From NCBI RefSeq assembly GCF_029203305.1, contig NC_089465.1:682001-746000 (forward strand): a stretch of DNA of 64,000 bases. Direction: 5' to 3'. The DNA is from Yamadazyma tenuis (Eukaryota > Ascomycota > Pichiomycetes > Serinales > Debaryomycetaceae). The position numbers and the translations under genes are program-made. The notes under the pieces were generated by a model, which had not been told where the DNA came from, ran no database searches, and saw nothing but the letters and a program-made list of their open reading frames with translations. This document shows, piece after piece, positions 38,101 to 58,560 of this stretch; position 1 is the stretch's first letter; the number at the start of each line of letters is the position of its first letter.

Positions 38101-38178
38101 CAAACATTGCAAAATTAAAACAGTAGCTGAGTACTTCCTACAAGAGATACATAATCAGAATCCAGGCTTCTCATCTGT
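35149..38178. other. Left flank of the candidate centromere, no gene seen
   Basis: 3 kb of AT-rich sequence. The first few hundred bp are the DIC1 promoter. A loosely repeated element (TAGATAAGTATATA followed by TTGACGAA and CATA) occurs near 35970 and 36075. A segment at 37470-37640 is less AT-rich and might be a remnant of a mobile element, but I find no terminal repeats or coding traces. Confidence 0.45.
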
Positions 38179-39128: not shown

Positions 39129-39158
39129 GACCAATGAATAATTTGACCAATGAATAAT
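39127..39158. repeat. 16-bp tandem duplication at the inner arm boundary
   Basis: TTGACCAATGAATAAT occurs twice back to back, exactly where the left arm gives way to the core. The right arm boundary lacks it. Confidence 0.9.
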
Positions 39159-40453: not shown

Positions 40454-41405
40454 AATATATAATCTTCACAATTGTTGTAGTCAGTGACGGAGATGATAAA
40501 TTTGTGTGCATATGATTGAACAAATTTGTTTATGAAAATTCAACTGGCTTTGGTGTTACTGGAATTTCGGCGAAGTGTGGAATTAGTATGTGATACTATA
40601 TCCCCTCTTATACTTATAGCATGGTACTTAGAAGGGCTCGGGTCGGTTGCCTTTATTACAGTCATCAATTTAAGCTATGATTCGTCTGGTATTTGAAAGC
40701 TTTCCTCTTTGAAAAATGAAAGACTTTGTAAATTGATCTATGCTTATGATTTCATGGTTCTTCGAAGGGATTTTCTAGATAGCCAATTTCTGAAGAATGC
40801 TTTTGAGAGATTGGTGGCTCTACTTCTTGATACGTAGGTAAGTGCATACGGTGCCGGTTCATGTGGAGGAAGCTATGGTATCAGCTTCGAAAGCTTCAGG
40901 TCTACTTTGAGATATACCTAATCTCAAGATATTCTTCTGTGAAGCATCGGTAATGCTGTTTAGAGTCTCACAAGTAGCAAATTTGTTGGCTCATATTGAT
41001 ATGGGCACAAGTTGGGGTCTTGCTTATATGTTTGTACTACTACTCAAATTGCTACCGTTTGTATAGGTGCATTACTCTCTCCTTGCCTGACAGATAACGC
41101 TTGTTAAGTGTCAATTTTATTGCTTGTTGCAGCATATTTCTAGGCACTTTTCTGATTATAATTGTTTTGAAGAAGCCTGGTAGCTGAGGTAGAAATGTTC
41201 CTATTAAATACATTTGGATATTGCTGAGAAGTATTGGTGCTCTTGTTCTCTCCTGTTCTCTGAAAGCATTTACTACTCTGAGACAGATAAAGGTGCCGTA
41301 TAACTTGGTTCCAAGCATCTCAAGATCATCCTGATTTATTATGATATAACTTATCTGGATGGTAATTCTCCTAAATTCTCCAATAATAGCTTACGAGAAG
41401 CGTAA
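40454..41405 (-). repeat. Right arm of the inverted repeat
   Basis: Reverse complement of the left arm: starts with AATATATAATCTTCAC and ends CTTACGAGAAGCGTAA at 41405. It carries the mirror copy of the 88-codon ORF at 41052-41318. The near identity implies recent duplication or ongoing gene conversion between arms. Confidence 0.95.
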
Positions 41406-43526: not shown

Positions 43527-44528
43527 ATGTTGTTTTGGAATAAAAGGCAGTTTGTGCCAGAGGCAACTGAATACTTCAATCCAATGACCGATAGCAAGGT
43601 GGCAATCATTACAGGCGGTAACCAGGGTATTGGATGGTACACTGTCTTACATTTGTATTTACATGGGTTCAAGATATACATGCTTGCAAGAAATGAGGAG
43701 AGGGCATTGAAAGCAATTGAAGAGATCAAAGTTGAAGCAGAGAAGCGAGTAAGCAAGTACGATGAAGCTGAGACTAGGCTGAGGTTCTTTGGTAGTATTC
43801 ATTACATACCCTGTGACTTATTGGACTTGAAGAATGTCGAAAAAGCTGCTGAAACTATAAAAAAAGCTGAAGACCACTTGGATATTATAATCAATAATGC
43901 TGGACTCATGGGATGTCCGTTCGAGATGACTAAAGATAACTATGAAGTCCAATTGCAGGTAAACGTGGTATCCCATGTTCTTTTGACATTGTCTTTGTTA
44001 CCACTTCTTGTGAACTCAAAGGCTCCAAGGGTTGTTCAAGTTTCTTCTCTTGGCCATAACCTTGCAACTTCATTTTATGAGAATACCAATGACTTGAATA
44101 AATCTCCTTCGTCTTATTATTCCATGTTGAGATATGGTGTGGCTAAAACAGCCGCAATTCATTTTACGGAGGTCTTGGCCAAGAAGTATCCTAATATTTT
44201 ATGCGTTGCAGTTCATCCTGGTGTAATTGCAACATCTTTGTACGACTTTGTTTGGTCAACTAATGGCTTTTTAGGTACAATCCTGAGCTGGATATTCAAG
44301 GTATCTGGAAGTATAATTGCCGTCTCCTCTGAGGTTGGTGCTTATGCTTCACTCAGGGCTGCTTTAGATAACACTTTGACAGTCGATCAAAATAACGGAT
44401 GCTTTCTCACAACGGGTGGTGTTATGTCTAGTGCAAGCAAAGTAGCAAGAAATATGGACTACGCAGAGAAGACCTGGAATTGGAACATCACTCAGCTTCA
44501 AGAACGGGGATTCAAATTGATTGATTAG
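43527..44528 (+). CDS. ENV9: Short-chain oxidoreductase Env9-like
   Basis: 333 residues, against 330 in yeast Env9 (YOR246C), a lipid-droplet oxidoreductase that affects vacuole morphology. The cofactor motif TGGNQGIG (29-36) runs into WYTVLHLYLHGF, a block distinctive of Env9. NNAG follows at 123-126, and YGVAK supplies catalytic Tyr203 and Lys207. The C-terminal FLTTGG and the closing WNWNITQLQERGF also match. First gene right of the gene-free region; not obviously part of the catabolic cluster that follows. Confidence 0.88.
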   Translation: MLFWNKRQFVPEATEYFNPMTDSKVAIITGGNQGIGWYTVLHLYLHGFKIYMLARNEERALKAIEEIKVEAEKRVSKYDEAETRLRFFGSIHYIPCDLLDLKNVEKAAETIKKAEDHLDIIINNAGLMGCPFEMTKDNYEVQLQVNVVSHVLLTLSLLPLLVNSKAPRVVQVSSLGHNLATSFYENTNDLNKSPSSYYSMLRYGVAKTAAIHFTEVLAKKYPNILCVAVHPGVIATSLYDFVWSTNGFLGTILSWIFKVSGSIIAVSSEVGAYASLRAALDNTLTVDQNNGCFLTTGGVMSSASKVARNMDYAEKTWNWNITQLQERGFKLID

Positions 44529-44628: not shown

Positions 44629-45585
44629 TTAACTAAGAGATTTTTCAAACTCTCCTAATTTTTTGATATCGTCTTCGTACTTGTTCCACACTTTCAAATC
44701 CACCTGATGGTTCAATGGGGGTCTCCCAGACACGTTTGAATCACCAAAGCCATGAATAACGTTTAATGCATGTTTGACACCAATCAAGTTAAGGCTGAAA
44801 ACCATTTGATTAGCCCTGGTGACCAAGAACTGTAATTTTTGGGCTTCTTCATATTGTTTATTGTTGAAAAGTTCAAAAAGCTTGAGCATAGATTTGGGGA
44901 ATACACCAGATAAACCATCAATGGCCCCAAAAGCTCCAATAGCTAAAGATGGGACCAAAATTTGACCCAATCCAGTGAATGGTCTGAAGTTGTTGGCTTT
45001 ATTCTCTTCCACTCTTCCAGTCAAAAGAACATATTTGTCCATATTGAAATGGGTTAATTTCACACCAACGATACTAGGGTGTTTCAGCAACACTTCAAAA
45101 GTCTCGGGGTTGATCTCAGTACCGTTACTAACACCTGGGTAGTGATAAATAACAATTGGTAAAGCCAGCTTGTCACCGACCAAAGTAAAATAGTCTATGA
45201 TGCCTTGTTGAGTAGTTAAAGAGTTACCGTAATATCCAGGGGTCAATAAAATAGTATAATTGGCACCAGCATCTTTCAAGGCTTTAATTTCGGCAATAGT
45301 GTCAGGAATATTTGTGTATGGCATACCGGAGATAATCTTGAACTCATCACTTGGTACAGCTGATCTGATAGCCTTGACGATTTCGAGTCTCTCTTGTCTA
45401 GTTAAATGAATAGATTCTCCCATTGATCCACCAGTTACAACACCGTTTATCCCGCTGCTATACAAAAACTTAGCATGGGCAATTTGACTTTCAAGATCTA
45501 ATTCATAGTTTTCGCCTGTGAAGAAGGTGGGAACTGGGGTGTAAATACCCTTTCCAATAGGTGTTTCAAACGTAGAAGCGGTCAT
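44629..45585 (-). CDS. LRA4: DHDPS-family 2-keto-3-deoxy-sugar-acid aldolase (LRA4-like)
   Basis: 318 residues with the class I aldolase (DapA/NAL) fold. Features are TGGSMGES in the substrate loop, Tyr149 in IYHYPG and Schiff-base Lys176 in VGVKLTH. In the L-rhamnose pathway of Scheffersomyces stipitis this family member (LRA4) splits L-2-keto-3-deoxyrhamnonate into pyruvate and L-lactaldehyde. The neighbouring RHA1 and LRA3 support that role. A paralogue lies at 53933-54850 and either could be the true LRA4; the other may use a different keto-deoxy acid. Confidence 0.85.
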   Translation of the reverse strand: MTASTFETPIGKGIYTPVPTFFTGENYELDLESQIAHAKFLYSSGINGVVTGGSMGESIHLTRQERLEIVKAIRSAVPSDEFKIISGMPYTNIPDTIAEIKALKDAGANYTILLTPGYYGNSLTTQQGIIDYFTLVGDKLALPIVIYHYPGVSNGTEINPETFEVLLKHPSIVGVKLTHFNMDKYVLLTGRVEENKANNFRPFTGLGQILVPSLAIGAFGAIDGLSGVFPKSMLKLFELFNNKQYEEAQKLQFLVTRANQMVFSLNLIGVKHALNVIHGFGDSNVSGRPPLNHQVDLKVWNKYEDDIKKLGEFEKSLS

Positions 45586-46008
45586 TTTGTTTTATTTAAT
45601 GGATGAAAATACAGGGATGATCCTCTTATTTGTATCAACAATGAATAACTAGGATTTTTTGAACCGAAATGCCTGGTTGTCCGTATTTTATACTGTACCA
45701 CCAAACTCAACCAGATTTGGAATGCGGAGGTGGGGGATATACCCCACAAAAAATTCTCTCTGCTACGTCGCATTCGGGGTTACACTCGGGTTCGTACTGG
45801 CCCGAGGATCCAGAGGTTTTTGTAGAGGAAAAGGAGATCATAGTATAAGCAGTATTTAGACGTGATATGTTCACTGATGTCATGGAATGTTTGTTGTGTT
45901 TGCTGTTAGTAATTAAAACTAACAAGAAAAGCCTGGTAAAACGCAATTTAAAAAGAGATGAGGCGGAGAACGAAAGAAGATCTTATATTAAGCAGAAATC
46001 ATTCTAAT
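45586..46008. promoter_or_regulatory. Promoter of the first aldolase gene
   Basis: About 420 bp upstream of the minus-strand aldolase. GGTGGGGG at 45729-45736 recurs in other promoters of this cluster. CCCCACAAAAA at 45742-45752 fits the Mig1 consensus (GC box with adjacent A/T), which would give glucose repression. CGG/CCG-type triplets follow near 45775-45810. Confidence 0.5.
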
Positions 46009-46938
46009 CTATTCAGAAGAGTCAAAGATGACAACAGGATCCCAAGGAGGAGAGACGAATCTTTGAGGGCCCCCTCTATTTTCAGCAATTCTGTTCAAGG
46101 CTTCTCCATCTTTATCCTCGAGCTCAATGATCTCGAGGTTGCTTTCAATTCTTTCAGGTTTAACAGATTTTGGCAAAACGACAGTTCCTCTCCAAATAGC
46201 CCAAGAAATAATCACTGTAGCTGAAGACACACCATACTTTTCAGCAATGGCTTTGATAGATTCATCCTTTAACAAAGGAGCGTCGGCGGAACCCAATGGG
46301 GAGTAAGCTTCAAGAACGACATCATGTTCTTTGGCAAATTCCAACAATTTATGTTGTGGCAAGTATGGGTGCAATTCAACTTGGTTACACACGGGTTTGA
46401 CCTTTAAACCGGAATCGAATAATTCCTTCATTTTAGAAACAGTACAGTTGGAAATACCAAGGGATTTAGTTAATCCTTGTTCCACCAAAGGTTCCATTAA
46501 TTTCCAGGTCTTAGTAAAGCTCCAATCATACACAATATCTCTTAATCCATCTGGTCTGGTTGGAATGGCTGGGTGATTACCATTTGGGTTCATAGCCAAT
46601 GGCCAATGCATCAAGTATAAGTCAACATATTCAAGACCCAACTTAGAAAGGGATTCTTTCAATGCCGATTCAGGATCATAGTGCTTAGTCGACCATAACT
46701 TTGTAGTGACAAATATCTGATCTCTGGAAATTCCAGAATCTTTTATAGCTTTACCGATTGGTTCTTCGTTACCGTAACCAGCAGCAGTATCAATATGTCT
46801 GTAACCAGCTTTCAAAGCGGTTAAGACGGAGTTGTAAACTTCTTCATCAGTCGCTCTCCAAGTGCCCAAACCAAGGGCGGGGATAGACGAACCGGTCGAT
46901 AATTTGTAGACCTTAGTAGATTTGAAAGCTTTAACCAT
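46009..46938 (-). CDS. Aldo-keto reductase (GCY1/YPR1-type)
   Basis: 309 residues with the AKR tetrad Asp50, Tyr55, Lys80 and His111 (in HIDTAAGYGNE, TTKLW and LMHWP), and the NADPH-binding LPKSVKPERI near the C-terminus. Close in sequence to yeast Gcy1/Ypr1, which act on glycerol/glyceraldehyde-type substrates. Within this cluster it is a candidate reductase for L-lactaldehyde, L-glyceraldehyde or an unsaturated-uronate product. It is transcribed divergently from RHA1, sharing a 400-bp promoter. Confidence 0.92.
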   Translation of the reverse strand: MVKAFKSTKVYKLSTGSSIPALGLGTWRATDEEVYNSVLTALKAGYRHIDTAAGYGNEEPIGKAIKDSGISRDQIFVTTKLWSTKHYDPESALKESLSKLGLEYVDLYLMHWPLAMNPNGNHPAIPTRPDGLRDIVYDWSFTKTWKLMEPLVEQGLTKSLGISNCTVSKMKELFDSGLKVKPVCNQVELHPYLPQHKLLEFAKEHDVVLEAYSPLGSADAPLLKDESIKAIAEKYGVSSATVIISWAIWRGTVVLPKSVKPERIESNLEIIELEDKDGEALNRIAENRGGPQRFVSPPWDPVVIFDSSE

Positions 46939-47341
46939 TTCTGTTATGATCTCAAAATTAGTTAAGTTAATAGTTCAATCTTAAACCATATATATATATT
47001 GTTGTCGAGCGCTTACCCGCGATCATAACCAAAACACCCCACTCCCCCACCATCGCATTACCTAATTCTCTTCCGCTTCGATGATTCAACGATAGGAGTG
47101 CACGAAACAGACACCAACTGGATCGAGCGTTTAATTTTCCTATATATACTTCGGAAACTCAGTTAATCCTTGGCCGACCTCTCGGTACCGATAATTCTTC
47201 CAAAGACCCCTCGCACTTCAAAGTGGGGCCTATGATTGATGTCACCGCATTAAGGATCAAGTTTCGCGTCCATCCCCGCCAAAAAATATATATTAATGCG
47301 TCTTGCTCCAGAATCTCAATGAACTTAAATTTATATACATA
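46939..47341. promoter_or_regulatory. Shared divergent promoter of the reductase and RHA1
   Basis: Contains CCCGCGATCATAA (47016-47028), exactly repeated in the TRC1/CYB2 promoter. CCCCCACC (47044-47051) is the same word as in the aldolase and transporter promoters. TTGGCCGA near 47170 is found in inverse orientation (TCGGCCAA) in the LRA3 promoter. A TATA-rich stretch precedes each gene. Confidence 0.55.
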
Positions 47342-48109
47342 ATGGCATTACTACAAGATAAGGTGGCTATCATCACCGGCGGTGTTACTGGAATTGGGAG
47401 GCTGATTGCTCTCGGAATGGCAAGAGAAGGAGCCAAAATATGTGTTAATCATCTACCTACCGACAAGCAGGCAGAATTAGCTGAAGAAATGGCACAGGAA
47501 GTTGGTCCTGAAAACTTTCTTGCTGTACCAGGTGATATCTCAAAACAAGAGACTAGTACTAACCTTGTCGCAGAAGCTGTGAAGAAGTTTGGAGAAGTTA
47601 ACATCTTAGTGTCCAATGCTGGTATTTGTGAATTTAATGATTTTTTGGAAACCAAACCCGAGACTTATCTTCAGACTATTGAAATTAACTTGAATGGATG
47701 TTTCTTCGTCACTCAAGCAGTTGGAAGACAAATGAAAAAGCAAGGAAAAGGGGGTAGTATCATTGGAATCAGTAGTATTTCTGCTTTGGTAGGTGGAGGC
47801 CACCAAGCCCATTACACTCCAACTAAAGCTGGTATTTTGTCATTAATGCAGTCATGTGCTTGTGCCTTGGGTCAATATGGAATCAGATGTAATGCTCTTC
47901 TCCCTGGTACTATAAGAACAGCTGTCAATGAAGAAGATTTGGCTGATGATGAGAAGAGAACTTACATGGAAAACAGAACAACTCTCGGAAGATTAGGAAA
48001 GCCCGACGATTTGGCTGGTCCTGCAATTTTTTTGGCTAGTGATCTTTCTGCATACATGACTGGATCCCAACTCCTCGTGGACGGGGGATTGTTTGTAAAC
48101 TTGCAGTAA
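47342..48109 (+). CDS. RHA1: L-rhamnose 1-dehydrogenase (SDR family)
   Basis: 255 residues; oxidises L-rhamnose to L-rhamnono-1,4-lactone with NAD(P)+, the first step of non-phosphorylating rhamnose catabolism. The SDR motifs are TGGVTGIG (12-19), NAG (92-94), the Ser at 144/145, Tyr158 and Lys162. The blocks GKGGSIIGISSISALVGG, HYTPTKAGILSLMQS and the C-terminus LLVDGGLFVNLQ match my recollection of Scheffersomyces RHA1 (also called LRA1). MALLQDKVAIITGG at 47342 is the natural start; 47303 would add 13 residues. Confidence 0.93.
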   Translation: MALLQDKVAIITGGVTGIGRLIALGMAREGAKICVNHLPTDKQAELAEEMAQEVGPENFLAVPGDISKQETSTNLVAEAVKKFGEVNILVSNAGICEFNDFLETKPETYLQTIEINLNGCFFVTQAVGRQMKKQGKGGSIIGISSISALVGGGHQAHYTPTKAGILSLMQSCACALGQYGIRCNALLPGTIRTAVNEEDLADDEKRTYMENRTTLGRLGKPDDLAGPAIFLASDLSAYMTGSQLLVDGGLFVNLQ

Positions 48110-48474
48110 TTTATAGAGAAATAGACTTTTTTAAGGCAGTATTAATGAATGTAAGTTGACCTTTGAAACATGGGCAAGAAAAAAAAACGGTCGGCTGATC
48201 TTTTATAATGGCTTCCTGGTCCCAATTATTGTACACATCGAGAGAGGTACGACACCGGTCGAATGTGAAAAGTCGGGCACATCATCAGGCGCAATACTGG
48301 TTCCCCGGATTATTATGAGCCCTCGCGCAATATCGGCCAAAAGACTAGTCGAGTCCTATACTTACTATTTTGAGGTGGGGTCACCTTGTCCTGATCGGTC
48401 AAGATATATAAAGGGACATATACACAGGGATTTTTCAATAATATTCATATTTGTATCACACAGAAGAAAAAAAG
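48110..48474. promoter_or_regulatory. LRA3 promoter
   Basis: 365 bp. Contains TCGGCCAA near 48336 (shared with the RHA1 promoter), GGTGGGG at 48374-48380 (one G shorter than the cluster word), several CGG/CCG half sites, and a TATATAAA-type box near 48406. Confidence 0.5.
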
Positions 48475-49725
48475 ATGGCATTGAAGGAATTTCCAAAAAT
48501 TGTCGACATTAAGACTTACATTGTTACTGAAAAGGGTAGTGGAGGTGACTACCACGACGTTGCCAAAGGTCACTGGCTTATTGACAGTAAGATTTCTACC
48601 CCAATGACTAAATTTCCAGAATACAGAACTTCAAGAACCAGTTGGGGTATCAATGTTTTGGGATCTTTTTGTGTGGAAATCATTGCTTCTGATGGTACTA
48701 CCGGTTTCGCAACTGGATTTGGTGGACCACCAGGTTGTTGGTTAGTTAAGCAACATTTCTGGAGATTTTTGAAAGATGAAGATCCAAGAAACCTTAATTC
48801 TATTTGGGACAAACTCTTCAGAGCTTCCATGTACTATGGTAGAAAAGGTCTCCCAATTGCTGTTATCAGTGTGATTGATTTAGCCCTTTGGGATTTATTG
48901 GGTAAGATTAGAAACGAGCCAGTGTACAAGATGATTGGAGGTGCTACTAGAGACAAATTAGACTTCTACTGTACTGGATGTGATCCTGTAGCTGCTAAAA
49001 AGATGGGATTCTGGGGTGGAAAGGTTGCCCTTCCATATGGACCAGATGAAGGATTTGAAGGCTTAAGAAAGAATGTTGCATTTTTGAAAAAGCATCGTGA
49101 AGACGTTGGCCCAGATTTCCCATTAATGGTTGATTGTTACATGTCTCTTAATGTTCAGTATGCTATTCAATTGGCTGACGCTACTCAAGATCTTAACATC
49201 AACTGGTTTGAAGAAACTCTTCACCCTGATGACGTTGAAGGTTACGCTTTATTGAAGAGAGCTCACCCAAGAATGAAATGGACTACTGGTGAGCATGAAT
49301 ACACCAGATATGGATTTAGAAAATTGATTGAAGGCCGTAATCTTGACATTGTTCAACCAGATATCATGTGGGTTGGTGGTATGACTGAAATTCTTAGAAT
49401 TGCTGCTCATGCTGCTGCTTATGATATTCCAGTTGTTCCTCATGCTTCTGGTCCTTACTCTTACCACTTTGTCATTTCTCAACCAAACACCCCCTTCCAT
49501 GAATATCTTGCTAACTCCCCAGATTCGAAGAGTGTTTTACCTGTCTTTGGTAATCTTTTCCTCGATGAACCAGTTCCCACAGAGGGATACCTTAACACTT
49601 CCATTTTGGACAAGCCAGGGTTCGGTCTTACCCTTAACCCTAAGATTCAATTGATTGAAGGTGACGCCTTGTTCAACCCAACTCCAGAGAGACCCTTGAA
49701 GATTGAACAAGAAAAGGAAGAGTAA
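48475..49725 (+). CDS. LRA3: L-rhamnonate dehydratase (enolase superfamily)
   Basis: 416 residues; dehydrates L-rhamnonate to L-2-keto-3-deoxyrhamnonate, Mg-dependent. It is co-linear with bacterial RhamD: GSGGDYHD near the start, SWGINVLGSF, metal ligands Asp220, Glu246 and Glu273, and catalytic His323 in VVPHASGPYSYH. The C-terminal LDKPGFG is also shared. MALKEFPKIVDIKTY at 48475 is the natural start. It follows RHA1 in the same direction, as in known yeast rhamnose clusters. Confidence 0.96.
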   Translation: MALKEFPKIVDIKTYIVTEKGSGGDYHDVAKGHWLIDSKISTPMTKFPEYRTSRTSWGINVLGSFCVEIIASDGTTGFATGFGGPPGCWLVKQHFWRFLKDEDPRNLNSIWDKLFRASMYYGRKGLPIAVISVIDLALWDLLGKIRNEPVYKMIGGATRDKLDFYCTGCDPVAAKKMGFWGGKVALPYGPDEGFEGLRKNVAFLKKHREDVGPDFPLMVDCYMSLNVQYAIQLADATQDLNINWFEETLHPDDVEGYALLKRAHPRMKWTTGEHEYTRYGFRKLIEGRNLDIVQPDIMWVGGMTEILRIAAHAAAYDIPVVPHASGPYSYHFVISQPNTPFHEYLANSPDSKSVLPVFGNLFLDEPVPTEGYLNTSILDKPGFGLTLNPKIQLIEGDALFNPTPERPLKIEQEKEE

Positions 49726-49763
49726 TTGGTTTTTCAGGTTAACTAGTTTACATTTATATTATA

Positions 49764-51977
49764 TCAATACATTTGCGAAGGCATAAAAACATTATTAAGT
49801 GGTAACTTGAACCAATCAAAGATTGATAAATCGTCTATGTTACCCTTAGCATTTTTATACCTTGCTACTTTCTTAGAAAGGAGAGAATCAAGAGAACTAG
49901 CATTAAGCTTAATGTCAGCTATCAATCTAGCATCTTCACTGTATGAGTTAGACAGATAGAATTCTCCTGTTCCATCATGACTTGAAGTATCCACTGTCAT
50001 AGTATCGTCTTTGAAAAATTCAAGAATGTTTGCGTACTTGGCGGCACATTCCCATTTCTGGCCTATTCTTCTCAAAAGACTAATGGCATAATCAAATTCT
50101 CCTTCTAGTTGACCTTGTGAATGAATAGCATCCACAAGTATTACTCTGCCACTCACCCAAATTGAAAAAGCATAATAAGGGCCAAAAATTGGAAACACTG
50201 ATTCTTCATCAATTTGGAAAAGTGATGGTAAGGACTTGGATATCTTTAAGATTAGATGGGCAGATTTCAAGCATTTAGCCTTTGAAGTTTGGGCAGAAAT
50301 AAGATACTTATCTTGGGAATCAGAGAATGCAGTTGGAGAGTGCAACCTTATGATCATGGTATGGTACAACGAATGAAGAATCACGTCTTTGACAGTAATT
50401 TGGCTTGACATCAAGATCTCGCTATCAAGAAATTGGGATACATTATCAGGCAAGCTTGATTTCCAGGCTTGAATTTCCTTTTCAAACTCATAACAACCCA
50501 ATTGCCAGGCTAATATACTCCCCATATCTTTAATATCCATGGGGCTTCCTCTAAATTTCAGACCTCTTCCCATAAGGTTTAAAACTTGGATTAAGTAGCA
50601 ATTACTACCATAAATATCCCTGTTACCAGGCTTGAAATTGAAATCATTCAAAGTATGTGTCTGTTCTTTTTCAATCAACGCCTTGTTATACAAAGACTTA
50701 AATTCCCAGAAATCAGCCTTCAATGGAAGTAAGCTAGACACCTCTTCCTGGGGAAGCTTTGACACAAAATGGCTTCCCATACTCGAGAGCTTATCAAGCT
50801 TATAGACTTCCCACATTAAGTATCGTATGGATTCCTTTTCAGCCCAAACTTCCCATTCGGCTCCTTCTGTTCTATTGAGAGAAACCAACTCATTCTGAGG
50901 GATTCCCAATAGATCATTATTTAATGGGAAATCTTTGATAATCCCCAAATGAAGACATCCCCCAACAGCCAAGGATATCATGCTCCATGCTTCATGGTTA
51001 TTAGACTCTCCATATAATGTGAATGCCAAAAGAGCAACAGCTCTTAATTCTTGGATAGTCCTCACAGCAAAACATGAAGATACGATTTTGGACTTAATAA
51101 ATGCAAAATATCTTTCGGCCTCTTGAGGACTGAACAAGTTAATTTGTAATTTAACAGTAGATACAAGGACACCCAACAACAAGAAGTTAGAAGTGTCAAT
51201 AGTTTTCAAGATTCTTGGCCTGTCCAACGTTGGATGAAGAATTGGAAACACAGGGTTCACAAGTTCAAAATACAACTCTACCAATACCTCAATCTTATCC
51301 AAAGGAGGAAGGCTATCAATGTCTTCAGGTGGTGAAATTGCCGAGTTTGTGTTAGGAGTGTAGTTGTTGGAAGAATTATTTCTAGTGAACATTGGACCTG
51401 GACCAGCAGAAATCAAAGCACTATTGGGCGTTATGGTTGGATTAGTGGTAGAAAGATTCATGGGATCAGTACCTGTTGATTGAAAATTCAATGGGATTGG
51501 TCTAATAGTTGAGGAGGTGGCGACACTGGGACCAGTATAGCGTTTTTCAAGAGTATCAAATTTCTCTTCCAAAAACTTCAACTTTTCTTTCAATTGAACG
51601 TTCTCCAATTGATGTAGAGTTTTGCTTTCCTCAACAAACTTGTCCAATTCTTCAATTCGTTCAAAAACTTGTTGCCCATAACCCGACCTTAGCCCGGGCT
51701 TTTTCATCACGCTGTATATGCAAGTTTCCCCATACTTTACACAATTCACACAAGTGGGTTTCTTTTGATCGCATTTAATTTTCTTTAATTTACAATGGTC
51801 ACAGGACTTGGAGATTTTTCCGGAGGTAGAAGGTGGTGGTTTAGTTACTCGACCAGTGTTGTAGGTGGTCAGTATATCGCCTCGTCCACTATCACTATCT
51901 GATGTTGAATTCTCCATTCTCAACCACGGATCAATGATGTCGAAAATTTTTGGTTGGGGAAAAAAACCTGGAAACAT
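49764..51977 (-). CDS. TRC1: Zn2Cys6 transcription factor, TRC1-like
   Basis: 737 residues. The binuclear zinc cluster at 59-86 has the pattern C-x2-C-x6-C-x6-C-x2-C-x6-C, followed by a basic linker and a coiled-coil segment (about 105-145) for dimerisation. The middle homology region begins near 230 (ELVNPVFPILHP). Position between rhamnose genes makes it the likely pathway activator, as proposed for TRC1 in the Scheffersomyces cluster. Its 127-bp promoter is shared with CYB2. Assignment to TRC1 is by context. Confidence 0.85.
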   Translation of the reverse strand: MFPGFFPQPKIFDIIDPWLRMENSTSDSDSGRGDILTTYNTGRVTKPPPSTSGKISKSCDHCKLKKIKCDQKKPTCVNCVKYGETCIYSVMKKPGLRSGYGQQVFERIEELDKFVEESKTLHQLENVQLKEKLKFLEEKFDTLEKRYTGPSVATSSTIRPIPLNFQSTGTDPMNLSTTNPTITPNSALISAGPGPMFTRNNSSNNYTPNTNSAISPPEDIDSLPPLDKIEVLVELYFELVNPVFPILHPTLDRPRILKTIDTSNFLLLGVLVSTVKLQINLFSPQEAERYFAFIKSKIVSSCFAVRTIQELRAVALLAFTLYGESNNHEAWSMISLAVGGCLHLGIIKDFPLNNDLLGIPQNELVSLNRTEGAEWEVWAEKESIRYLMWEVYKLDKLSSMGSHFVSKLPQEEVSSLLPLKADFWEFKSLYNKALIEKEQTHTLNDFNFKPGNRDIYGSNCYLIQVLNLMGRGLKFRGSPMDIKDMGSILAWQLGCYEFEKEIQAWKSSLPDNVSQFLDSEILMSSQITVKDVILHSLYHTMIIRLHSPTAFSDSQDKYLISAQTSKAKCLKSAHLILKISKSLPSLFQIDEESVFPIFGPYYAFSIWVSGRVILVDAIHSQGQLEGEFDYAISLLRRIGQKWECAAKYANILEFFKDDTMTVDTSSHDGTGEFYLSNSYSEDARLIADIKLNASSLDSLLSKKVARYKNAKGNIDDLSIFDWFKLPLNNVFMPSQMY

Positions 51978-52104
51978 ATCACCCGAGACAAAATGTGGGG
52001 GTGAGGAAGAGGGGTGGATAATACTCCGGGCCCGCGATCATAATCGCATATTTTTACAAGCGAAGATCTCGAATGAACAAACCATCAACCACTGAAAAAC
52101 CAAA
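51978..52104. promoter_or_regulatory. Short shared promoter of TRC1-like and CYB2 genes
   Basis: Only 127 bp separates the two start codons. It contains CCCGCGATCATAA at 52031-52043 (identical to the RHA1 promoter copy) and GTGGGGGTG at 51995-52003, a variant of the cluster G-rich word. Both genes are therefore probably co-regulated. Confidence 0.6.
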
Positions 52105-53754
52105 ATGTACAGAAGACTAGTTACCAATTCTGTTAAAGAATATGGATTTGGGTTGAAGAGATGTGGTACCAGGTCTTTTACTAGTTCGGTAAAGCCTTTT
52201 CAATTAAATTTGAAAAATTCAAAGGTTTGGTCTCGATGGGCATCGGTGCTTGCCTCTGCTGCATTCATTGGGGTTGGCTTTCGTGTAACCACAAACCAAT
52301 CTACTATTTTGTTAGATAAAAAGATAAATGCAGAAGATGTTGCTAAGCATGACAATCTCGATAACGGAGTGTGGGTGGTAATCAACGGAAAAGTTTATGA
52401 CTTGACGACCTTCATCAACATGCATCCTGGTGGAACCTCAATTATTCTTAAATATGCCGGAAAGGACGCGTCCTTTTTGTTCAACAAAGTCCATGCCCGG
52501 GGAACTATTGAGAGCATTCTTCCAGAGGAGTGTTATTTGGGAGAATTGGATGGAGAGCTCGAAGAATTCGACGATCCAATGATTCGTGAGGAAAAACGAA
52601 GCCAGGAAATGAGGGCCAAGAGACCACCTTTGATGTCCATTTTGAACCTTACTGAGTTTGAATATGTGGCTCAGAAAATTCTTCCTATTCATGCGTGGGC
52701 GTACTACTCAGGTGGTAGTGACGATGAAGTTACTTTAAGGGAAAACAACTCTGCCTATGGTCGATACTACTTTAAGCCTAAGGTTCTTGTTGATGTTGAC
52801 GACGTGGATATTTCCACCGAGATGTTAGATACCAAAACTTCTGCTCCATTCTATTGCTCAGCAGCTGCTCTGGCCAAACTTGGACACCCTGATGGTGAAC
52901 TTTCGATTGCCAGAGGTCTTTATAAAGAGAATATTATACAAATGATATCAAGTGCTTCTTCTTATCCAATGGATGAAATTGTCGAAGAAACTCCAGGACC
53001 AAAATGGTTCCAATTATATGTGAAGCCTGATAGAGAAGAGAGCTTGGAAACCATTAGAGAGTGTGAGGAATTGGGTGTCAAGGCAATTTTTGTTACTGTT
53101 GATACCCCATTGTTTGGTAGGCGTGAGAAGGATCTTAGATTTAAGATTGCAGATACCGAGGATATAGAGGCAGTGGATTTGAACCTTAAGGACAGCGATG
53201 ACTTCATCTTGTCGTACGATAAGATTAGACTCAAGTGGTCAGATATCGAGACTTTCAAGAAAAATTCTTCTATTCCAATTGTGGTCAAAGGTATTCAAAG
53301 AGTGGAGGATGTACTTTTAGCTATTGAAAACAAGGCTGATGCTGTGGTATTATCCAATCACGGTGGTCGTCAGTTGGACTTTGCTCGTCCTCCAATTGAT
53401 GTGTTAGCAGAACTTATGCCTATTTTGAGAGAGAGAAACTTGGATGATAAAATTGAGGTATTCATCGATGGGGGTGTCAGAAGAGGTAGTGACGTTCTCA
53501 AAGCCCTTTGCCTTGGTGCTAAGGGAGTTGGTTTAGGAAGATCATTCTTGTATGCCAATTCCTCTTACGGAGAAAATGGGGTTATTAAGGCTTGTAAGTT
53601 GTTGAAAGATGAGATTTCCAGGGACATGAAATTATTAGGAGTCACCAAAGTCAGTGAATTGACACCTGATCTTATTCACACATATCCTGCAGTTTTTACT
53701 AGCCATAACAATATCGTATATGAGCCATTATATTTGCCTCAATTCAAAGAATAG
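52105..53754 (+). CDS. CYB2: L-lactate dehydrogenase (flavocytochrome b2)
   Basis: 549 residues; oxidises L-lactate to pyruvate and passes electrons to cytochrome c in the intermembrane space. Order of parts: basic mitochondrial presequence, hydrophobic sorting segment about 43-60, and a cytochrome b5 domain with haem ligands His107 (in HPGG) and His130. The FMN-dependent alpha-hydroxyacid dehydrogenase domain follows, with YYSGG and the active-site histidine in SNHGGRQLD. Inside this cluster it would recover L-lactate made from L-lactaldehyde. One CTG (in AAALAKLG) lies where homologues have Leu/Met, an oddity if CTG is Ser. Confidence 0.95.
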   Translation: MYRRLVTNSVKEYGFGLKRCGTRSFTSSVKPFQLNLKNSKVWSRWASVLASAAFIGVGFRVTTNQSTILLDKKINAEDVAKHDNLDNGVWVVINGKVYDLTTFINMHPGGTSIILKYAGKDASFLFNKVHARGTIESILPEECYLGELDGELEEFDDPMIREEKRSQEMRAKRPPLMSILNLTEFEYVAQKILPIHAWAYYSGGSDDEVTLRENNSAYGRYYFKPKVLVDVDDVDISTEMLDTKTSAPFYCSAAALAKLGHPDGELSIARGLYKENIIQMISSASSYPMDEIVEETPGPKWFQLYVKPDREESLETIRECEELGVKAIFVTVDTPLFGRREKDLRFKIADTEDIEAVDLNLKDSDDFILSYDKIRLKWSDIETFKKNSSIPIVVKGIQRVEDVLLAIENKADAVVLSNHGGRQLDFARPPIDVLAELMPILRERNLDDKIEVFIDGGVRRGSDVLKALCLGAKGVGLGRSFLYANSSYGENGVIKACKLLKDEISRDMKLLGVTKVSELTPDLIHTYPAVFTSHNNIVYEPLYLPQFKE

Positions 53755-53932
53755 ATTATTTATTTATAAAAATGCATAATAGCAATTTCATGTCTTTGAC
53801 ATTATGCTTTGTTGGCCCATTTACACATAAACCATATAGATTTTTCTATCAAGAACTAATGCTTTCTATTCTAACAGCTTTTATTTGTATTGAATACTGC
53901 GACAATACTAGAGATCAATGGTCAAATCAAAA

Positions 53933-54850
53933 TTAAATGGTGACAGACTTTTCACCTTCGGAGATTTCAGCAATGAATTTATCCAACTTCTCCCAACCAG
54001 CAGTGGTGTCCTTATTTAAAGGCATGCGGCCTAAGTAGGTTTCTCCGAATCCAGTGGCTTCGTAAATAATTCTCTTAATTCCAATAACACCATATTCACT
54101 GACACATTTCTCTCCTCTGATAATGGCCAACTGCAATCTTTGAGCTTCTTTAAAGTTACCTTCATCGAAAGCTTGGATCAATCTAGTGTAAATTTTAGGA
54201 TATGCGCCACTAATAGCATCAACAGTTCCCTTGAAACCGATGGAAAGAGCTGGTAATAATAAGTGACCAAGTCCTGTTAAGCAAACAAAGTCTTTGATTT
54301 CTTCATCAAGAGAAATTTCACTGTAGCTAGTAACGTCATTGTGAGAGAATTTAATTCCCACGATGTTCTTATGGGAAGACAAAGTCTTGATAGTGCTGGG
54401 AGCAACGTTAACGTTGTTGGTTACACCAGGATAAACGTAAATCAACACAGGAATTGGTGAGTTATCAGCGACTTCGGTATACCACTCAACTAATGCTTCT
54501 TGAGTGATAGAAGGTCCAAAATAACTGGAAGGTAATACCAAAGCGAAAGAAGCACCCGATTTGGCAACGGATTCTATCTCTTCAATAGTTTCTTGTAAGC
54601 AGTTTTGAGCAATTCCTGCTACAATGGTGAACCCCTTTACATTATCATGGATTTGTTTGACAATTTCGGCTCTTTCAGCTCTAGTCAAATGGGCATTTTC
54701 ACCGGTTGATCCCAACAAGGTTATCCCCTTGATGCCATTATCTTGCAAGAATTTAGCATGAGCTACTTGGGTAGCAAAGTCAATTGTATTCAAGTCCTTT
54801 TTGAAGAAAGTTGGAACTGGTGTATAAACACCCTTTTGTGGTAACAGCAT
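53933..54850 (-). CDS. Second DHDPS-family aldolase, paralogue of the LRA4-like gene
   Basis: 305 residues sharing the YTPVPTFF start and AHAKFL and HLTR-AER blocks with the protein at 44629-45585. Tyr140 (IYVYPG) and Schiff-base Lys167 (VGIKFSH) are retained. The substrate loop differs: LLGSTGEN instead of TGGSMGES. It shares a divergent promoter with the GH105 gene. It may be the real LRA4, or may cleave a keto-deoxy acid from the galacturonate half of pectin fragments, like fungal 2-keto-3-deoxy-L-galactonate aldolase. Confidence 0.87.
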   Translation of the reverse strand: MLLPQKGVYTPVPTFFKKDLNTIDFATQVAHAKFLQDNGIKGITLLGSTGENAHLTRAERAEIVKQIHDNVKGFTIVAGIAQNCLQETIEEIESVAKSGASFALVLPSSYFGPSITQEALVEWYTEVADNSPIPVLIYVYPGVTNNVNVAPSTIKTLSSHKNIVGIKFSHNDVTSYSEISLDEEIKDFVCLTGLGHLLLPALSIGFKGTVDAISGAYPKIYTRLIQAFDEGNFKEAQRLQLAIIRGEKCVSEYGVIGIKRIIYEATGFGETYLGRMPLNKDTTAGWEKLDKFIAEISEGEKSVTI

Positions 54851-55251
54851 AGTTGGTTATCTTATTTTTTGATTTGTTAGGATTTCGAGATAATATAATA
54901 CCAGCGGCCTCGATGTATTATTTGTACGAAGCTCCGATCCGTGGGGAATAGGCGTGTACAGGCGGCGTTTGGGTCTTTTTGAGATGATTCTGGGGATTTG
55001 GACGAATTTGGACGCCAACACACGACTTTATCTTGATTAAGCGAGATTGTTGGTGGGGGCGGGAAGATATGGGGACAAATTGGCAAAGATGGGAAGAGGT
55101 GGGGTAGAATGATTCCAAAAGTAGCATCAACCTGCCGTTCGGAAGAATATGGCATACAAGCCTCAGCATCGGTCACATCAACGGCCCGTGAAAAAATTGT
55201 TTATATATCATCAATCGAGCAACCCCGGAAAATTTCCAAAAATTTACCACT
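54851..55251. promoter_or_regulatory. Divergent promoter of the second aldolase and GH105
   Basis: About 400 bp. GGTGGGGG at 55052-55059, extended to TTGGTGGGGG, is the reverse complement of the CCCCCACCAA repeated in the transporter promoter. GC-rich half sites (CCGATCCG near 54934) are also present. Confidence 0.55.
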
Positions 55252-56370
55252 ATGCCCGCTCACTTATTTGATCTTAAAGCTAAAGATGTTGACTCCCTTG
55301 TCAATATATTAATCGATAATCTAATCCATATCAAGGATGAAACTGGAAAATTCTTGATGACCATTCCAGATGGACGAATCATCGACACTAAAGGGTGGAT
55401 AACTGGATGGGAATGGACCCATGGAATAGGTCTTTATGGAATGTGGCACTATTACGAACTCACCAACAAAAGCCAGATCTTGAAACACATTGAAGACTGG
55501 TTCGAGGCTCAAATGTTTGGACCTGACGGAAGTACTTCCAAGAACATTAACACCATGGCCGTTTTCTTATCTTTAGCATACGTTTATGAAAGGCATGGAA
55601 ATGAACGGTATGTTCCGTACTTGGATTCATGGGCAGAATGGGCCATGTATGATTTGCAAAAAACCAAATGTGGTGGGTTTCAACACGCTACTTACTTAAC
55701 TGATAACCATGAGCAAATGTGGGATGATACGTTAATGATGACGGTAATGCCTCTTGCAAAGATTGGATTATTGTTGAATCGCCCTCACTATGTTGAGGAA
55801 GCTAAGAAGCAAATGCTTTTGCATATCAAGTACCTTTGTGATGCCAAAACTGGTTTATGGTACCACGGATATACTTTTGATGGGAATCACAATTTTGCCA
55901 ATGCCTTTTGGGCTAGAGGAAACTCGTGGATTACTATTGTGATTCCTGAATTCATCGAGTTATTAAACTTACAACCAGGAGACTTTTTAAGAGAGTTTTT
56001 AATCGAAACTCTTGATTCACAAGTGGCTCAATTAGCTGAATTGCAAGATGCAAAGACTGGTTTATGGCATACATTATTAGATGACGAAACTTCGTACCTT
56101 GAGTCTTCAGCAGCAGCTGGCTTCGCATACGGGATCTTAAAAGGTATCAGAAAGAAGTATTTGGATCCCAAATATAAATCAGTTGCTATTAATGCTATTA
56201 AGGGTGTTATTGGCCAAATTGATGGAAGAGGTGAGTTACTTAATACATCTTTTGGTACTGGAATGGGCGATGACTTGCAATTTTATAGAGACATTCCTTT
56301 GACATCGATGCCATATGGTCAAGCTATGGCTATAATGGCTCTTGTGGAGTTTTCTAGATTATATTTATAG
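55252..56370 (+). CDS. GH105 unsaturated rhamnogalacturonyl hydrolase, cytosolic
   Basis: 372 residues of the GH88/GH105 (alpha/alpha)6-barrel family, which hydrates and releases the 4,5-unsaturated galacturonic acid from rhamnogalacturonan oligosaccharides made by lyases, leaving rhamnose-ended product. Visible signatures are GWITGWEWTHGIGLYG, MWDDTLMM (Asp158/159, the catalytic region), FWARGNSW, and SSAAAGFAYG. There is no signal peptide, so the enzyme should act in the cytosol on imported substrate. Length agrees with bacterial YteR-type enzymes. I see no strong sign of recent transfer in codon use, but bacterial or filamentous-fungal origin is possible. Confidence 0.92.
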   Translation: MPAHLFDLKAKDVDSLVNILIDNLIHIKDETGKFLMTIPDGRIIDTKGWITGWEWTHGIGLYGMWHYYELTNKSQILKHIEDWFEAQMFGPDGSTSKNINTMAVFLSLAYVYERHGNERYVPYLDSWAEWAMYDLQKTKCGGFQHATYLTDNHEQMWDDTLMMTVMPLAKIGLLLNRPHYVEEAKKQMLLHIKYLCDAKTGLWYHGYTFDGNHNFANAFWARGNSWITIVIPEFIELLNLQPGDFLREFLIETLDSQVAQLAELQDAKTGLWHTLLDDETSYLESSAAAGFAYGILKGIRKKYLDPKYKSVAINAIKGVIGQIDGRGELLNTSFGTGMGDDLQFYRDIPLTSMPYGQAMAIMALVEFSRLYL

Positions 56371-56623
56371 ATGAATGAAACGTTCACCACCAACGAGGTA
56401 AAGTTAACCATTAACAGGCGCAGGATATCGCTCAGCCATCGGATAAAATACTTAGTAGTGTGGTGGCTCTAAAGACAACAAAGGTATATTCTCGGGACAG
56501 TCTTTACCCGGGATGGAGCCTCGGTAAGCGTATAGTATAGCTCCATCCAATTAGAGAGGTTCTATCATTCCGGCCGAAGTCAATCATGATTATTCATTCA
56601 ATTTTCGTATCATATATATATAC

Positions 56624-58234
56624 CTAATATGCATACCTGAAGTTGACATTCTCTCTGTCAGTCAAATCATCAAAAGCATGCTTCAAGTGAACATCAGCAG
56701 TTGCCACTCCACTTTCAATCAACTTTTCTTTTCTTCTGTTTTCCCTCATCAACCATAACCTCAAGAATAACAAGAGTAAAATCAAGGCGGCATAACATCC
56801 TAAGTGGGTTCCAAATGCTGTCAAGTATCTTGGGTCTTCATTTGCACGGAACACTTGAGGTCCCACGATGTTACCAACAGCCCAACCAACGAAGTTCATG
56901 GTTGTGCAGACAGCTTTTTTGGATTGACCAGCAATGTTTCTTGAAAGTAAAGAAAGTCCCAAGTTAGCAACACCCCAGAAAGAAAGAGTCAAGTAGTAAC
57001 AGAACAATAAGACACCAGTTCTAAGTTTGTGTTGATACGAATCAGGATCGTATTCAGCGTAGGTCAAAGTCATCAATACCACAGTTCCCACAATGGATGG
57101 AACAACGTACATGATCATGAAGAAGATATTTTGGTTGAATCTCTTAGAAAAGTAGGCCGAACTTAAAAGCAAAAAGATCAAATAGGCACCCAAAACCATA
57201 GACAACAACTGAGTTTGTAAAACAGTAAAACCGAAAGATGCAATGATGATGTTAGCAAAAGCTCCCAAACCTGAAGTTGGCAAACTAGTCAAAAATTGAA
57301 TGAAGAAGTAGCAGTAAGCTTGTGGATCTTTGAGAGCTTCAATGAGATGTTCTTTCTTGAACTTCTTGTTCTGAAGACCAGTTTGGTTACTACGGACTCT
57401 CTCAACCATTAATCTCTTGTCTTCTTCACTGAAACATTTAGCAGACATTGGGGAATCAGGCGTGTAAAAGAAAAGGAAAATACCCCAAACAACAGTAATA
57501 CAACCATAAGTCAAGAACAAAATCTCCCAGTTCTTTAAGGCAGCGCCTTCAATCAAAGTGAAACAGTAAGAAAGTAAACCACCAACAATCTGTTGACCAC
57601 CATTCATCATATACCAAAGAGCAACAATGAATGCTTGTTCTTCTCTTTTATACCACATGGAAGACATCAAAATAAAACAAGGTTGACAACAACATTCAAA
57701 TAACCCTAACAAAGTTCTGACAGCAACCAAAATAGGAAAATTTTTACCCAAAGCATGGCACCCTAAGACAATACCCCAAAGAATAATATTAGCAGTCAAA
57801 TACTTAACCACTGGGACCTTTTGAATGATCACATTGGTAGGCAATTCAAAAACCAAAACGGCAATATAAGTACAAGTAGTCAACCAAGAATATTGTTGAC
57901 CAACCAAACCAGCATCTTCCCGAATACCCATAATAGAAGAAAAGGACAAAGTACCTTTATCTAAGGCTTGCAAAAAGTAAGTTCCAATCATGCAAGGTAA
58001 GATTCTCTTGTTAACCAACCGTCTGATCCTCCTATTGGTTTCCTCATCGATTTCAATAGCATCCTCTTGGATGTAATCCAAAATCTGCTTGTCTACCTTT
58101 TCTGTAGCTAACTCATCACCAACCTCTTTATTTTGAAACAGATTGGTTTCCACATTTTCAACGTGGTTTACACTTTCCTTTAACATATCAACTTCACCTA
58201 ATCTTGAAGAATTAGAGCTTGAAACAGTTCTCAT
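56624..58234 (-). CDS. MFS transporter, Dal5/anion:cation symporter family
   Basis: 536 residues with a long charged N-terminus (about 85 residues) and 12 predicted membrane segments. LQALDKGTLSFSSIMGI and LLGLFECCCQPCFILMSSMWYKREEQ are typical of the allantoate permease (ACS) family, which carries organic anions including sugar acids. Next to the intracellular GH105 enzyme it is the natural candidate importer of unsaturated rhamnogalacturonan disaccharide or of a sugar acid. Convergent with the GH105 gene. Confidence 0.93.
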   Translation of the reverse strand: MRTVSSSNSSRLGEVDMLKESVNHVENVETNLFQNKEVGDELATEKVDKQILDYIQEDAIEIDEETNRRIRRLVNKRILPCMIGTYFLQALDKGTLSFSSIMGIREDAGLVGQQYSWLTTCTYIAVLVFELPTNVIIQKVPVVKYLTANIILWGIVLGCHALGKNFPILVAVRTLLGLFECCCQPCFILMSSMWYKREEQAFIVALWYMMNGGQQIVGGLLSYCFTLIEGAALKNWEILFLTYGCITVVWGIFLFFYTPDSPMSAKCFSEEDKRLMVERVRSNQTGLQNKKFKKEHLIEALKDPQAYCYFFIQFLTSLPTSGLGAFANIIIASFGFTVLQTQLLSMVLGAYLIFLLLSSAYFSKRFNQNIFFMIMYVVPSIVGTVVLMTLTYAEYDPDSYQHKLRTGVLLFCYYLTLSFWGVANLGLSLLSRNIAGQSKKAVCTTMNFVGWAVGNIVGPQVFRANEDPRYLTAFGTHLGCYAALILLLLFLRLWLMRENRRKEKLIESGVATADVHLKHAFDDLTDRENVNFRYAY

Positions 58235-58560
58235 ACTTAATTACTAAACAGCTTTAATAGAATAAAATCAGCTTGAATTCTGTTTCAAAAACGGCATTAA
58301 GGTCCCTCTTTATACGTCCGCACAACCACTTGAGATCTTTTGGGGGTCCCGCTAAATTCAACTCATTCGGTGTCGGTTTTTTCTTCACCCACACCTCCCG
58401 CACCAAATTGTATGAAAACCCCCACCAAATCTGGGGGTCAACCCCCACCAAAATCGAGCACTCCCCACATTTTTTCCCACCGCGGCACGACATCGTGCAT
58501 TTTTCCAGCTACAAATCTGGGGTACGGAGGGGGTGGGGCAGTGAAGTCCGATAATAGGAA
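58235..58560. promoter_or_regulatory. Transporter promoter with duplicated C-rich element
   Basis: AACCCCCACCAAA occurs twice in the same orientation (58417-58429 and 58440-58452), each containing CCCCCACC, the cluster word. The intervening CTGGGGGT allows alternative pairing with either copy. CCGCGGCACGACATCGTGC near 58480 holds a small palindrome. Confidence 0.55.

Follow-up and report, generated by a model that had tools for sequence, protein, structure and literature searches.

The closest described counterparts of the locus considered here are the PDR-1 regulon of the mould Neurospora crassa, the rhamnogalacturonide genes of Erwinia/Dickeya and the L-rhamnose (LRA) gene clusters of other yeasts; these accounts, like the others cited below, are represented by excerpts, and what we say of them applies to that portion of each text. 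The N. crassa core regulon comprises 22 genes and includes putative rha1 and lra3, pdr-1 itself and two putative lra4 genes (PMC5469009), as well as the hydrolase gene gh105-1 (NCU02654) and mfs-20 (NCU02653), which is labeled "allantoate permease" (PMC5469009). The adjacent locus numbers of NCU02654 and NCU02653 suggest that these two genes are neighbors, and a GCY-type gene, NCU01906, is affected by PDR-1 and belongs to another expression cluster (PMC5469009). For the uronates released from such substrates, a review of hexuronate metabolism describes fungal pathways for galacturonate and glucuronate and treats the unsaturated uronates under bacteria and engineered yeast (PMC6353982). In this study, we analyze a 13.6-kb locus of nine genes in the yeast Yamadazyma tenuis, at positions 44629-58234 of a 64,000-nucleotide stretch of DNA that we call the window (C5:682001-746000, on contig NC_089465.1 of NCBI RefSeq assembly GCF_029203305.1), together with searches of the whole genome (10.86 Mb, 8 contigs). 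Positions given without a contig are those of the window.

We consider it probable, at roughly 70%, that this cluster serves the intracellular catabolism of an unsaturated rhamnogalacturonan disaccharide (delta-4,5-unsaturated galacturonate-rhamnose, delta-4,5-GalA-Rha) and is repressed by glucose. In the pathway that we propose, a secreted PL4 lyase, whose gene lies on a different chromosome, would cut the rhamnogalacturonan I backbone of pectin, an ACS/Dal5-type MFS permease would import the acidic disaccharide, and a cytosolic GH105 hydrolase would split it into L-rhamnose and an unsaturated galacturonate, which would rearrange to 4-deoxy-5-ketouronate (DKI). Rhamnose would be converted to pyruvate and L-lactaldehyde by RHA1, LRA3 and one of two PF00701 aldolases, with a lactonase from outside the cluster acting between RHA1 and LRA3; an aldehyde dehydrogenase, also encoded elsewhere, would then oxidize L-lactaldehyde to L-lactate, from which CYB2 would make pyruvate. 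On the uronate side, an aldo-keto reductase (AKR) would reduce DKI to 2-keto-3-deoxygluconate (KDG), which the other PF00701 aldolase would cut into pyruvate and glyceraldehyde.

Translation used table 12 (CTG = Ser), Y. tenuis being assumed to belong to the CTG clade. Each of the nine genes is one intact open reading frame (ORF), and their Pfam and NCBIfam families are those named in the initial annotation, whose gene set is borne out. The GH105, LRA3 and AKR genes contain no CTG codons, and the results for these three are therefore independent of the translation table. The nine genes form a real, well-bounded catabolic cluster.

A probable intracellular GH105 hydrolase and its relatives

The gene at 55252-56370 (+ strand) encodes a GH105 (GH88/105) protein (Pfam, 312.5 bits) that is a candidate unsaturated rhamnogalacturonyl hydrolase. 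Its best relatives in the PDB are 3qwt, 3pmm and 4xuv (497-508 bits), with YteR at 78 bits. D159 of the yeast protein aligns with D143 of YteR, a position at which the chain of 2gh4, which we take to be an inactivated substrate complex of YteR, shows N; D159, like N100, H145, W157, H205, W220 and R222, is the same in all 21 sequences aligned, and the family assignment is thus joined by the catalytic Asp. A Kyte-Doolittle scan found no hydrophobic N-terminal stretch, and on this ground the enzyme is taken to be cytosolic, as had been claimed.

Bacterial relatives were drawn from the PDB, a bacterial genome scan (which gave one relative, from Aquisalinus) and plasmid records. By tblastn, 281 plasmid records contain relatives, and in 227 of these a single place spans 80% or more of the query; neighborhoods were examined for 16 of the 40 matches listed (11 annotated, five without annotation). 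When these 16 and the Aquisalinus locus were aligned, 14 of the 17 proved 54.6-62.1% identical to the yeast GH105, the three distant ones being Subdoligranulum (50.3%), Ciceribacter (41.5%) and Gemmobacter (38.7%). Rhamnose, rhamnogalacturonan or kdu genes lie near GH105 in eight of the 11 annotated loci: rhamnose genes in Sphingobium, Sphingomonas and Paracoccus (3/11), a rhamnogalacturonan acetylesterase or lyase in Sphingobium and Sphingomonas (2/11), and kduI and/or kduD in Roseicitreum, Alloyangia, Thioclava, Vibrio and the distant Gemmobacter (5/11). An oligogalacturonate lyase gene is present at the Pseudoalteromonas locus. From these relationships we infer that the yeast enzyme probably acts on delta-4,5-GalA-Rha. 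Among the matches listed, the relative in one Klebsiella aerogenes record (48.7% identity, in two pieces) is labeled RhiN, and the whole branch may be RhiN-like. This annotation of one bacterial relative conflicts with the BglB label of the NCBIfam subgroup into which the yeast protein (55252-56370) falls.

The GC content of the gene (0.388) and that of its third codon positions (0.371) are like those of the neighboring genes, and in a tree of 21 sequences the yeast protein groups with 4xuv (support 99/98) among bacterial sequences. The entry 4xuv, a "GH105 family protein" by its PDB label and presumably from Thielavia terrestris, is the only other fungal GH105 sequence in the tree. A recent transfer from bacteria is disfavored by the neighbor-like composition and the grouping with 4xuv, which make an old acquisition shared by fungi likelier. 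A second GH88 match in the genome, at C4:968330 (22.8 bits, or 31.5 with in-frame neighbors), lies in a 369-residue ORF whose N-terminus resembles a signal peptide by eye; we take this to be another (alpha/alpha)6 hydrolase.

A candidate source of the disaccharide

PF14683, domain III of PL4, matches once in the Y. tenuis genome, whereas 14 prokaryotic genomes searched as controls gave no match. The match falls in a 611-residue protein encoded at C1:435628-437463, a candidate secreted PL4 rhamnogalacturonan lyase with a hydrophobic N-terminus and PL4 domains II and III (fn3_3, 27.4 bits against a cut-off of 24.4; CBM-like PF14683, 112.1 bits against 27). Three copies of the hexamer GTGGGG, discussed below, lie within 400 bp upstream of its gene. 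Residues 134-610 are about 30% identical to plasmid sequences of Candidatus Stammera and residues 136-602 about 30% identical to a "polysaccharide lyase family protein" of Enterobacter huaxiensis; these alignments cover 76-78% of the candidate, and 17 plasmid records were matched. K217 and H283, presumably the catalytic Lys/His pair of PL4, are conserved in four of four rows.

GH28, GH78 (searched as PF17389 only) and KduI have no match in the genome. Without GH78 and GH28 matches, only the disaccharide itself would be completely usable, and with its PL4 candidate and GH105 Y. tenuis looks like a lyase-route specialist. Rhamnogalacturonan endolyases were found in fewer than 60 species in a survey of 1,154 yeast genomes (PMC11449361). 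In A. niger, deletion of lra genes or of rhaR lowers urhgA (GH105) and rglB (PL4) as well as lraA-lraC (PMC5674754).

Candidate genes for the rhamnose half

The predicted RHA1/LRA1 L-rhamnose 1-dehydrogenase, a member of the SDR family (47342-48109, + strand), has RhamDHLra1 as the best of its 232 NCBIfam matches, at 370.3 bits, 30 bits short of the cut-off of 400 of a model that was made for bacterial annotation. The neighboring LRA3 L-rhamnonate dehydratase (MR_MLE; 48475-49725, + strand) matches PRK15440 at 505.9 bits, over the cut-off of 393, which confirms its earlier identification. For the intervening lactonase step (LRA2) there is no Amidohydro_2 match on C5, other lactonase families not having been searched. 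The genome has two such matches, C4:887669 and C6:31308-32267 (50.7 bits); the latter scores 49.4 bits with an L-fucono-lactonase model (cut-off 400) and has one GTGGGG upstream. The chromosome of this lactonase candidate also carries a gene for a 550-residue sulfatase at C6:16748-18400 (L048 4649-6301). Lactaldehyde dehydrogenase is likewise not in the cluster: ten Aldedh matches lie elsewhere in the genome and none on C5. The flavocytochrome b2 of CYB2 type (Cyt-b5 and FMN_dh; 52105-53754, + strand), which would take L-lactate to pyruvate, matches PDB entries titled "cytochrome b2, mitochondrial", with a top score of 480 bits. Between LRA3 and CYB2 lies a gene for a Zn2Cys6 transcription factor (Zn_clus and Fungal_trans; 49764-51977, - strand), a TRC1/RhaR candidate by family and position.

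Two of the six PF00701 matches in the genome are in the cluster. Aldolase A (DHDPS/NAL class I aldolase; 44629-45585, - strand; 104.5 bits) is a candidate LRA4 or KDG aldolase, and aldolase B (DHDPS; 53933-54850, - strand; 127.3 bits), which is divergent from the GH105 gene, is a candidate KDG aldolase or second LRA4. The two are 40.5% identical to each other. The closest paralogs of aldolase A in the genome are C3:1060702 (54.0%) and C1:817358 (47.7%), the latter adjoining a homolog of L-fuconate dehydratase (PDB 4a35, 456 bits), and aldolase B is 46.9% identical to C1:1772864. In alignment, aldolase A keeps the Tyr and Lys of the family, which we take to be catalytic. LRA4 of S. stipitis carries a PF00701 domain (PMC5674754). 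The LRA4-like aldolase of the initial annotation is thus matched by two genes of the right family, either of which may be LRA4 by family and position.

The surroundings of the aldolase paralogs may be recorded here. At C1:815529-821247 (L015/L016), a sugar transporter, a PF00701 aldolase, the L-fuconate dehydratase homolog and a Zn-alcohol dehydrogenase adjoin one another, possibly as a non-phosphorylated L-fucose-type cluster. The closest paralog of aldolase B, at C1:1772864-1778303 (L014), lies near ORFs that by eye are sugar-transporter-like and AKR-like and has four GTGGGG upstream.

Candidates for the uronate half

The AKR (Aldo_ket_red, 169.6 bits; 46009-46938, - strand) matches NCBIfam DkgA at 248.3 bits, below the cut-off of 425, has 3o0k and 1mzr as PDB relatives, and is a candidate for the reduction of DKI or 4-deoxy-L-erythro-5-hexoseulose uronate (DEHU), or of lactaldehyde or glyceraldehyde. 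An aldo-keto reductase of abalone acts on DEHU. In bacteria one reductase suffices to turn DEHU into KDG, and among fungi Asteromyces cruciatus has a known DEHU transporter (PMC6353982, PMC8286568).

One of the nearest paralogs of aldolase A adjoins an L-fuconate dehydratase homolog, a hint that the substrate of A is a 6-deoxy acid, for example L-2-keto-3-deoxyrhamnonate (L-KDR); aldolase A may thus act on L-KDR and aldolase B, whose promoter region is common with GH105, on KDG. Put together, these candidates would make a complete eukaryotic uronate route in which the AKR replaces KduI and KduD (DKI to KDG) and a DapA-family aldolase cuts KDG unphosphorylated, a tentative scheme to which we give slightly less than an even chance. 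If it holds, one of the "lra4" genes of the Neurospora regulon is probably not an L-KDR aldolase but this same KDG-cutting enzyme, and the Dal5-type permease next to the GH105 gene would be a fungal disaccharide importer.

The only RpiB-like gene in the genome, C5:1104489, was considered as a DhuI-type uronate isomerase and dropped; it encodes 152 residues and is flanked by a Zn-alcohol dehydrogenase gene on one side and a kinase-type Dak1/Dak2 gene on the other. The three adjoining genes (C5:1102828-1106951; L047 3229-7352), which are accompanied by GTGGGG, presumably form an erythritol-type catabolic set.

The MFS permease

The last gene of the cluster (56624-58234, - strand; MFS_1, 116 bits) encodes a candidate importer of an acidic disaccharide. 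It scores 224.6 bits with the NCBIfam D-galactonate transporter model TIGR00893, below the cut-off of 395, and we take its family to be ACS/Dal5-like. In four of the 11 annotated bacterial loci (Sphingobium, Pseudoalteromonas, Sphingomonas and Pantoea) an MFS gene adjoins GH105, that of Pseudoalteromonas being split by an insertion sequence. Six bacterial MFS sequences or pieces were compared with the yeast protein, from L049, L050 (two pieces), L051 and L053, where they lie by GH105, and from L054, where the gene does not. In Pfam, MFS_2 is the best match of each of the three that were tested, whereas the yeast protein matches MFS_1 only.

Promoter regions and the extent of the cluster

Among 1,217 hexamers in the six intergenic regions of the cluster, GTGGGG is the most enriched, with 14 copies in six of six regions and 6.04/kb against 0.51/kb in a background of 37,320 bases (uncorrected Poisson 5.5e-11). 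There are two sites in the aldolase A promoter region (45586-46008), three in the divergent AKR/RHA1 region (46939-47341), one before LRA3 (48110-48474), one in the divergent region between the transcription factor and CYB2 (51978-52104), three between aldolase B and GH105 (54851-55251) and four before the MFS gene (58235-58834); further copies at 58900, 59228 and 59647 fall in the gene-poor stretch past the last of these. Within 600 bp upstream, the hexamer precedes nine of nine cluster genes and none of the 17 other ORFs compared (27 ORFs in the window, less the nine and one at 26744-27319 that overlaps a longer ORF). Because the nine genes share only six intergenic regions, the fairer test is six of six regions against none of 17 genes (Fisher 1e-5). 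By the same measure, the SDR gene at 43527-44528 falls outside the cluster. Elsewhere, GTGGGG also precedes the gene of the PL4 candidate and genes of the fuconate-dehydratase and erythritol-type clusters. The hexamer thus looks like a mark of alternative-carbon genes that helps fix the cluster boundary; its presence does not show control by rhamnose. We take it to fit the Mig1/CreA consensus. In A. nidulans, however, glucose repression of the lra genes is independent of CreA (PMC7532622), and a role for GTGGGG in glucose repression is for that reason put forward as a candidate only.

Control through the RhaR/PDR-1 motif was considered and found no support: allowing one mismatch, TCGG-N11-CCGA occurs twice against 0.31 expected, and spacings of 10, 12 and 14 give 2, 2 and 3 occurrences, so that a spacing of 11 does not stand out. 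CGG/CCG pairs at other spacings occur in no more than three of seven promoter regions (CGGN9CGG), and the density of single CGG triplets in the six cluster regions is 1.9 times that of the background. The sequence CCGCGATCATAA occurs in the AKR/RHA1 region (47017-47028) and the transcription factor/CYB2 region (52032-52043) and not once in the 37,320 background bases, and is a possible site of the cluster regulator.

On the other side of the cluster, at 38176-41408, a perfect 952-bp inverted repeat flanks a 1,329-bp core, its only occurrence in the genome. It sits in an 8.5-kb stretch free of ORFs of at least 150 residues, 3.2 kb from the cluster, and looks like a centromere with chromosome-specific repeats.

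Alternative explanations

The alternatives to catabolism of delta-4,5-GalA-Rha are not mutually exclusive, and their odds need not sum to one. The cluster might consume rhamnose only, with both aldolases acting on L-KDR, the AKR acting on L-lactaldehyde or glyceraldehyde, and the uronate half being excreted. The two putative lra4 genes of N. crassa, both rhamnose-induced and PDR-1-dependent (PMC5469009), would fit such a variant, as would the grouping of aldolase A with a paralog beside an L-fuconate dehydratase homolog, i.e., with 6-deoxy sugar acids, and the lack of a KduI match in the genome. The low identity of the two aldolases (40.5%) and the promoter region that aldolase B has in common with GH105 speak against it, and we hold the rhamnose-only variant to be somewhat unlikely. 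A different unsaturated uronyl-sugar as natural substrate, for instance ulvan-derived delta-4,5-unsaturated glucuronate-rhamnose (delta-GlcA-Rha) or arabinogalactan-derived delta-GlcA-Gal, seems improbable. The chromosomal GH105 relative of Aquisalinus does lie near a sulfatase, a DUF1961 gene and an RpiB/DUF3666 isomerase, and the Y. tenuis genome has its sulfatase gene (C6:16748-18400), but the latter is on a different chromosome from the cluster, beside an oxidoreductase of the old yellow enzyme flavin type; the genome holds a PL4 candidate (PL24, PL25 and PL28 lyases were not searched); and two annotated bacterial relatives at 62% identity sit in rhamnogalacturonan loci. As for the permease, its cargo might instead be rhamnose, rhamnonate, lactate or DKI, with the disaccharide entering otherwise or being cleaved outside; the link to anions is at family level only, TIGR00893 being below its cut-off. 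The GH105 protein lacks a hydrophobic N-terminus, so that cleavage needs import, the allantoate-type permease of N. crassa has the locus number next to gh105-1 and belongs to the same regulon (PMC5469009), and an MFS gene adjoins GH105 in four of the 11 annotated bacterial loci, though of another MFS family. Another cargo is, in our judgment, unlikely.

Several observations weigh against use of the disaccharide. The Pantoea and Cronobacter loci (2 of the 11 annotated) have no rhamnose, rhamnogalacturonan, pectin or kdu gene, and the yeast GH105 passes the NCBIfam model NF051900 "beta-galactosidase BglB" (429.3 bits, cut-off 420); literature tying GH105 to BglB and beta-galactosidase came to one paper, on Acetivibrio hydrolases. 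The yeast permease is not similar to the MFS proteins beside bacterial GH105 (blastp best E 0.7). GTGGGG precedes 25 of 72 genes in other loci, mostly chosen for sugar-acid genes, and so is not cluster-specific, and the RhaR/PDR-1 site TCGG-N11-CCGA has no exact match in the six promoter regions. For the PL4 candidate, Pfam gave no match in the N-terminal portion and none to the catalytic domain I of the family, and the protein has no PDB relative (one unrelated match, E 0.16). Without GH78 and GH28 matches, longer oligosaccharides would seem not to be finished, PL26 and GH106 not having been searched, and the PL4 gene of N. crassa, asd-1, is regulated opposite to gh105-1 (PMC5469009). In favor of disaccharide use stand the PL4 candidate, the bacterial GH105 neighborhoods, the GTGGGG signature and the N. 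crassa regulon. The proposal of the initial annotation is upheld in part, since transport by the permease, the substrate of GH105 and the further course of the uronate half are what we infer from sequence, and the components are already known elsewhere.

Comparison with described systems

A similar gene set makes up the PDR-1 (RhaR) regulon of N. crassa, in which rha1 and lra3, the regulator gene, two putative lra4 aldolase genes, gh105-1 (for an intracellular enzyme) and the permease gene respond to L-rhamnose via PDR-1 (PMC5469009). In the mould, rha1, lra3 and pdr-1 are clustered and the rest have distant locus numbers, whereas in Y. tenuis nine genes lie in one locus; CYB2 is part of the yeast cluster and is absent from the PDR-1 core as listed in the excerpt, which does not discuss disaccharide import (PMC5469009). 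The RhiE-RhiT-RhiN system of Erwinia/Dickeya, under RhaS, likewise combines an extracellular lyase, a rhamnogalacturonide transporter and a cytoplasmic hydrolase with rhamnose co-regulation (PMC3870299), but is coupled to a phosphorylated rhamnose pathway, in contrast to the non-phosphorylated route and missing KduI match of Y. tenuis. The yeast permease is unlike the MFS_2 permeases beside bacterial GH105, RhiT itself not being among those compared. With YteR, the GH105 of B. subtilis (PDB 1nc5, 2gh4), the yeast enzyme shares the catalytic Asp143 and the surrounding His, Trp and Arg in alignment, although YteR scores only 78 bits and the branch that includes the yeast protein is that of 3qwt, 3pmm and 4xuv.

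The LRA clusters of Scheffersomyces stipitis, Komagataella phaffii and Candida auris clades III and V contain RHA1, LRA3, a PF00701 LRA4 and a Zn2Cys6 regulator (PMC2784038, PMC5674754, PMC4891683, PMC8471779); in the excerpts, LRA3 of K. phaffii lies apart from the cluster and that of C. auris also lists an MFS transporter. These clusters include LRA2, which the Y. tenuis cluster lacks by the Amidohydro_2 search, and their excerpts mention no GH105; Y. tenuis adds GH105, an AKR, CYB2 and a second aldolase. Import of an unsaturated uronate and a one-reductase step to KDG have likewise been combined in engineered S. cerevisiae from DHT1 of Asteromyces cruciatus and a bacterial DEHU reductase (PMC6353982, PMC8286568). 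That system, however, uses an alginate monomer and a KDG kinase, without a disaccharide or GH105, and the excerpts describe no natural fungal catabolic genes (PMC6353982, PMC8286568).

No yeast system joining disaccharide import, GH105 cleavage and rhamnose oxidation was found in the excerpts of open-licence literature, in keeping with what the initial annotation had claimed. Its parts are nonetheless known from the N. crassa regulon and from RhiE/RhiT/RhiN, so that the novelty lies in the yeast arrangement and not in the route. What is new here is the condensation into one yeast locus of a regulon known from a mould, along with concrete candidates, the AKR and the second aldolase, for the unsaturated uronate half. 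The locus thereby names testable enzymes for the uronate left by GH105, points to a possible ligand of a Dal5/allantoate-type permease, and could supply a compact set of parts for yeasts using pectin waste.

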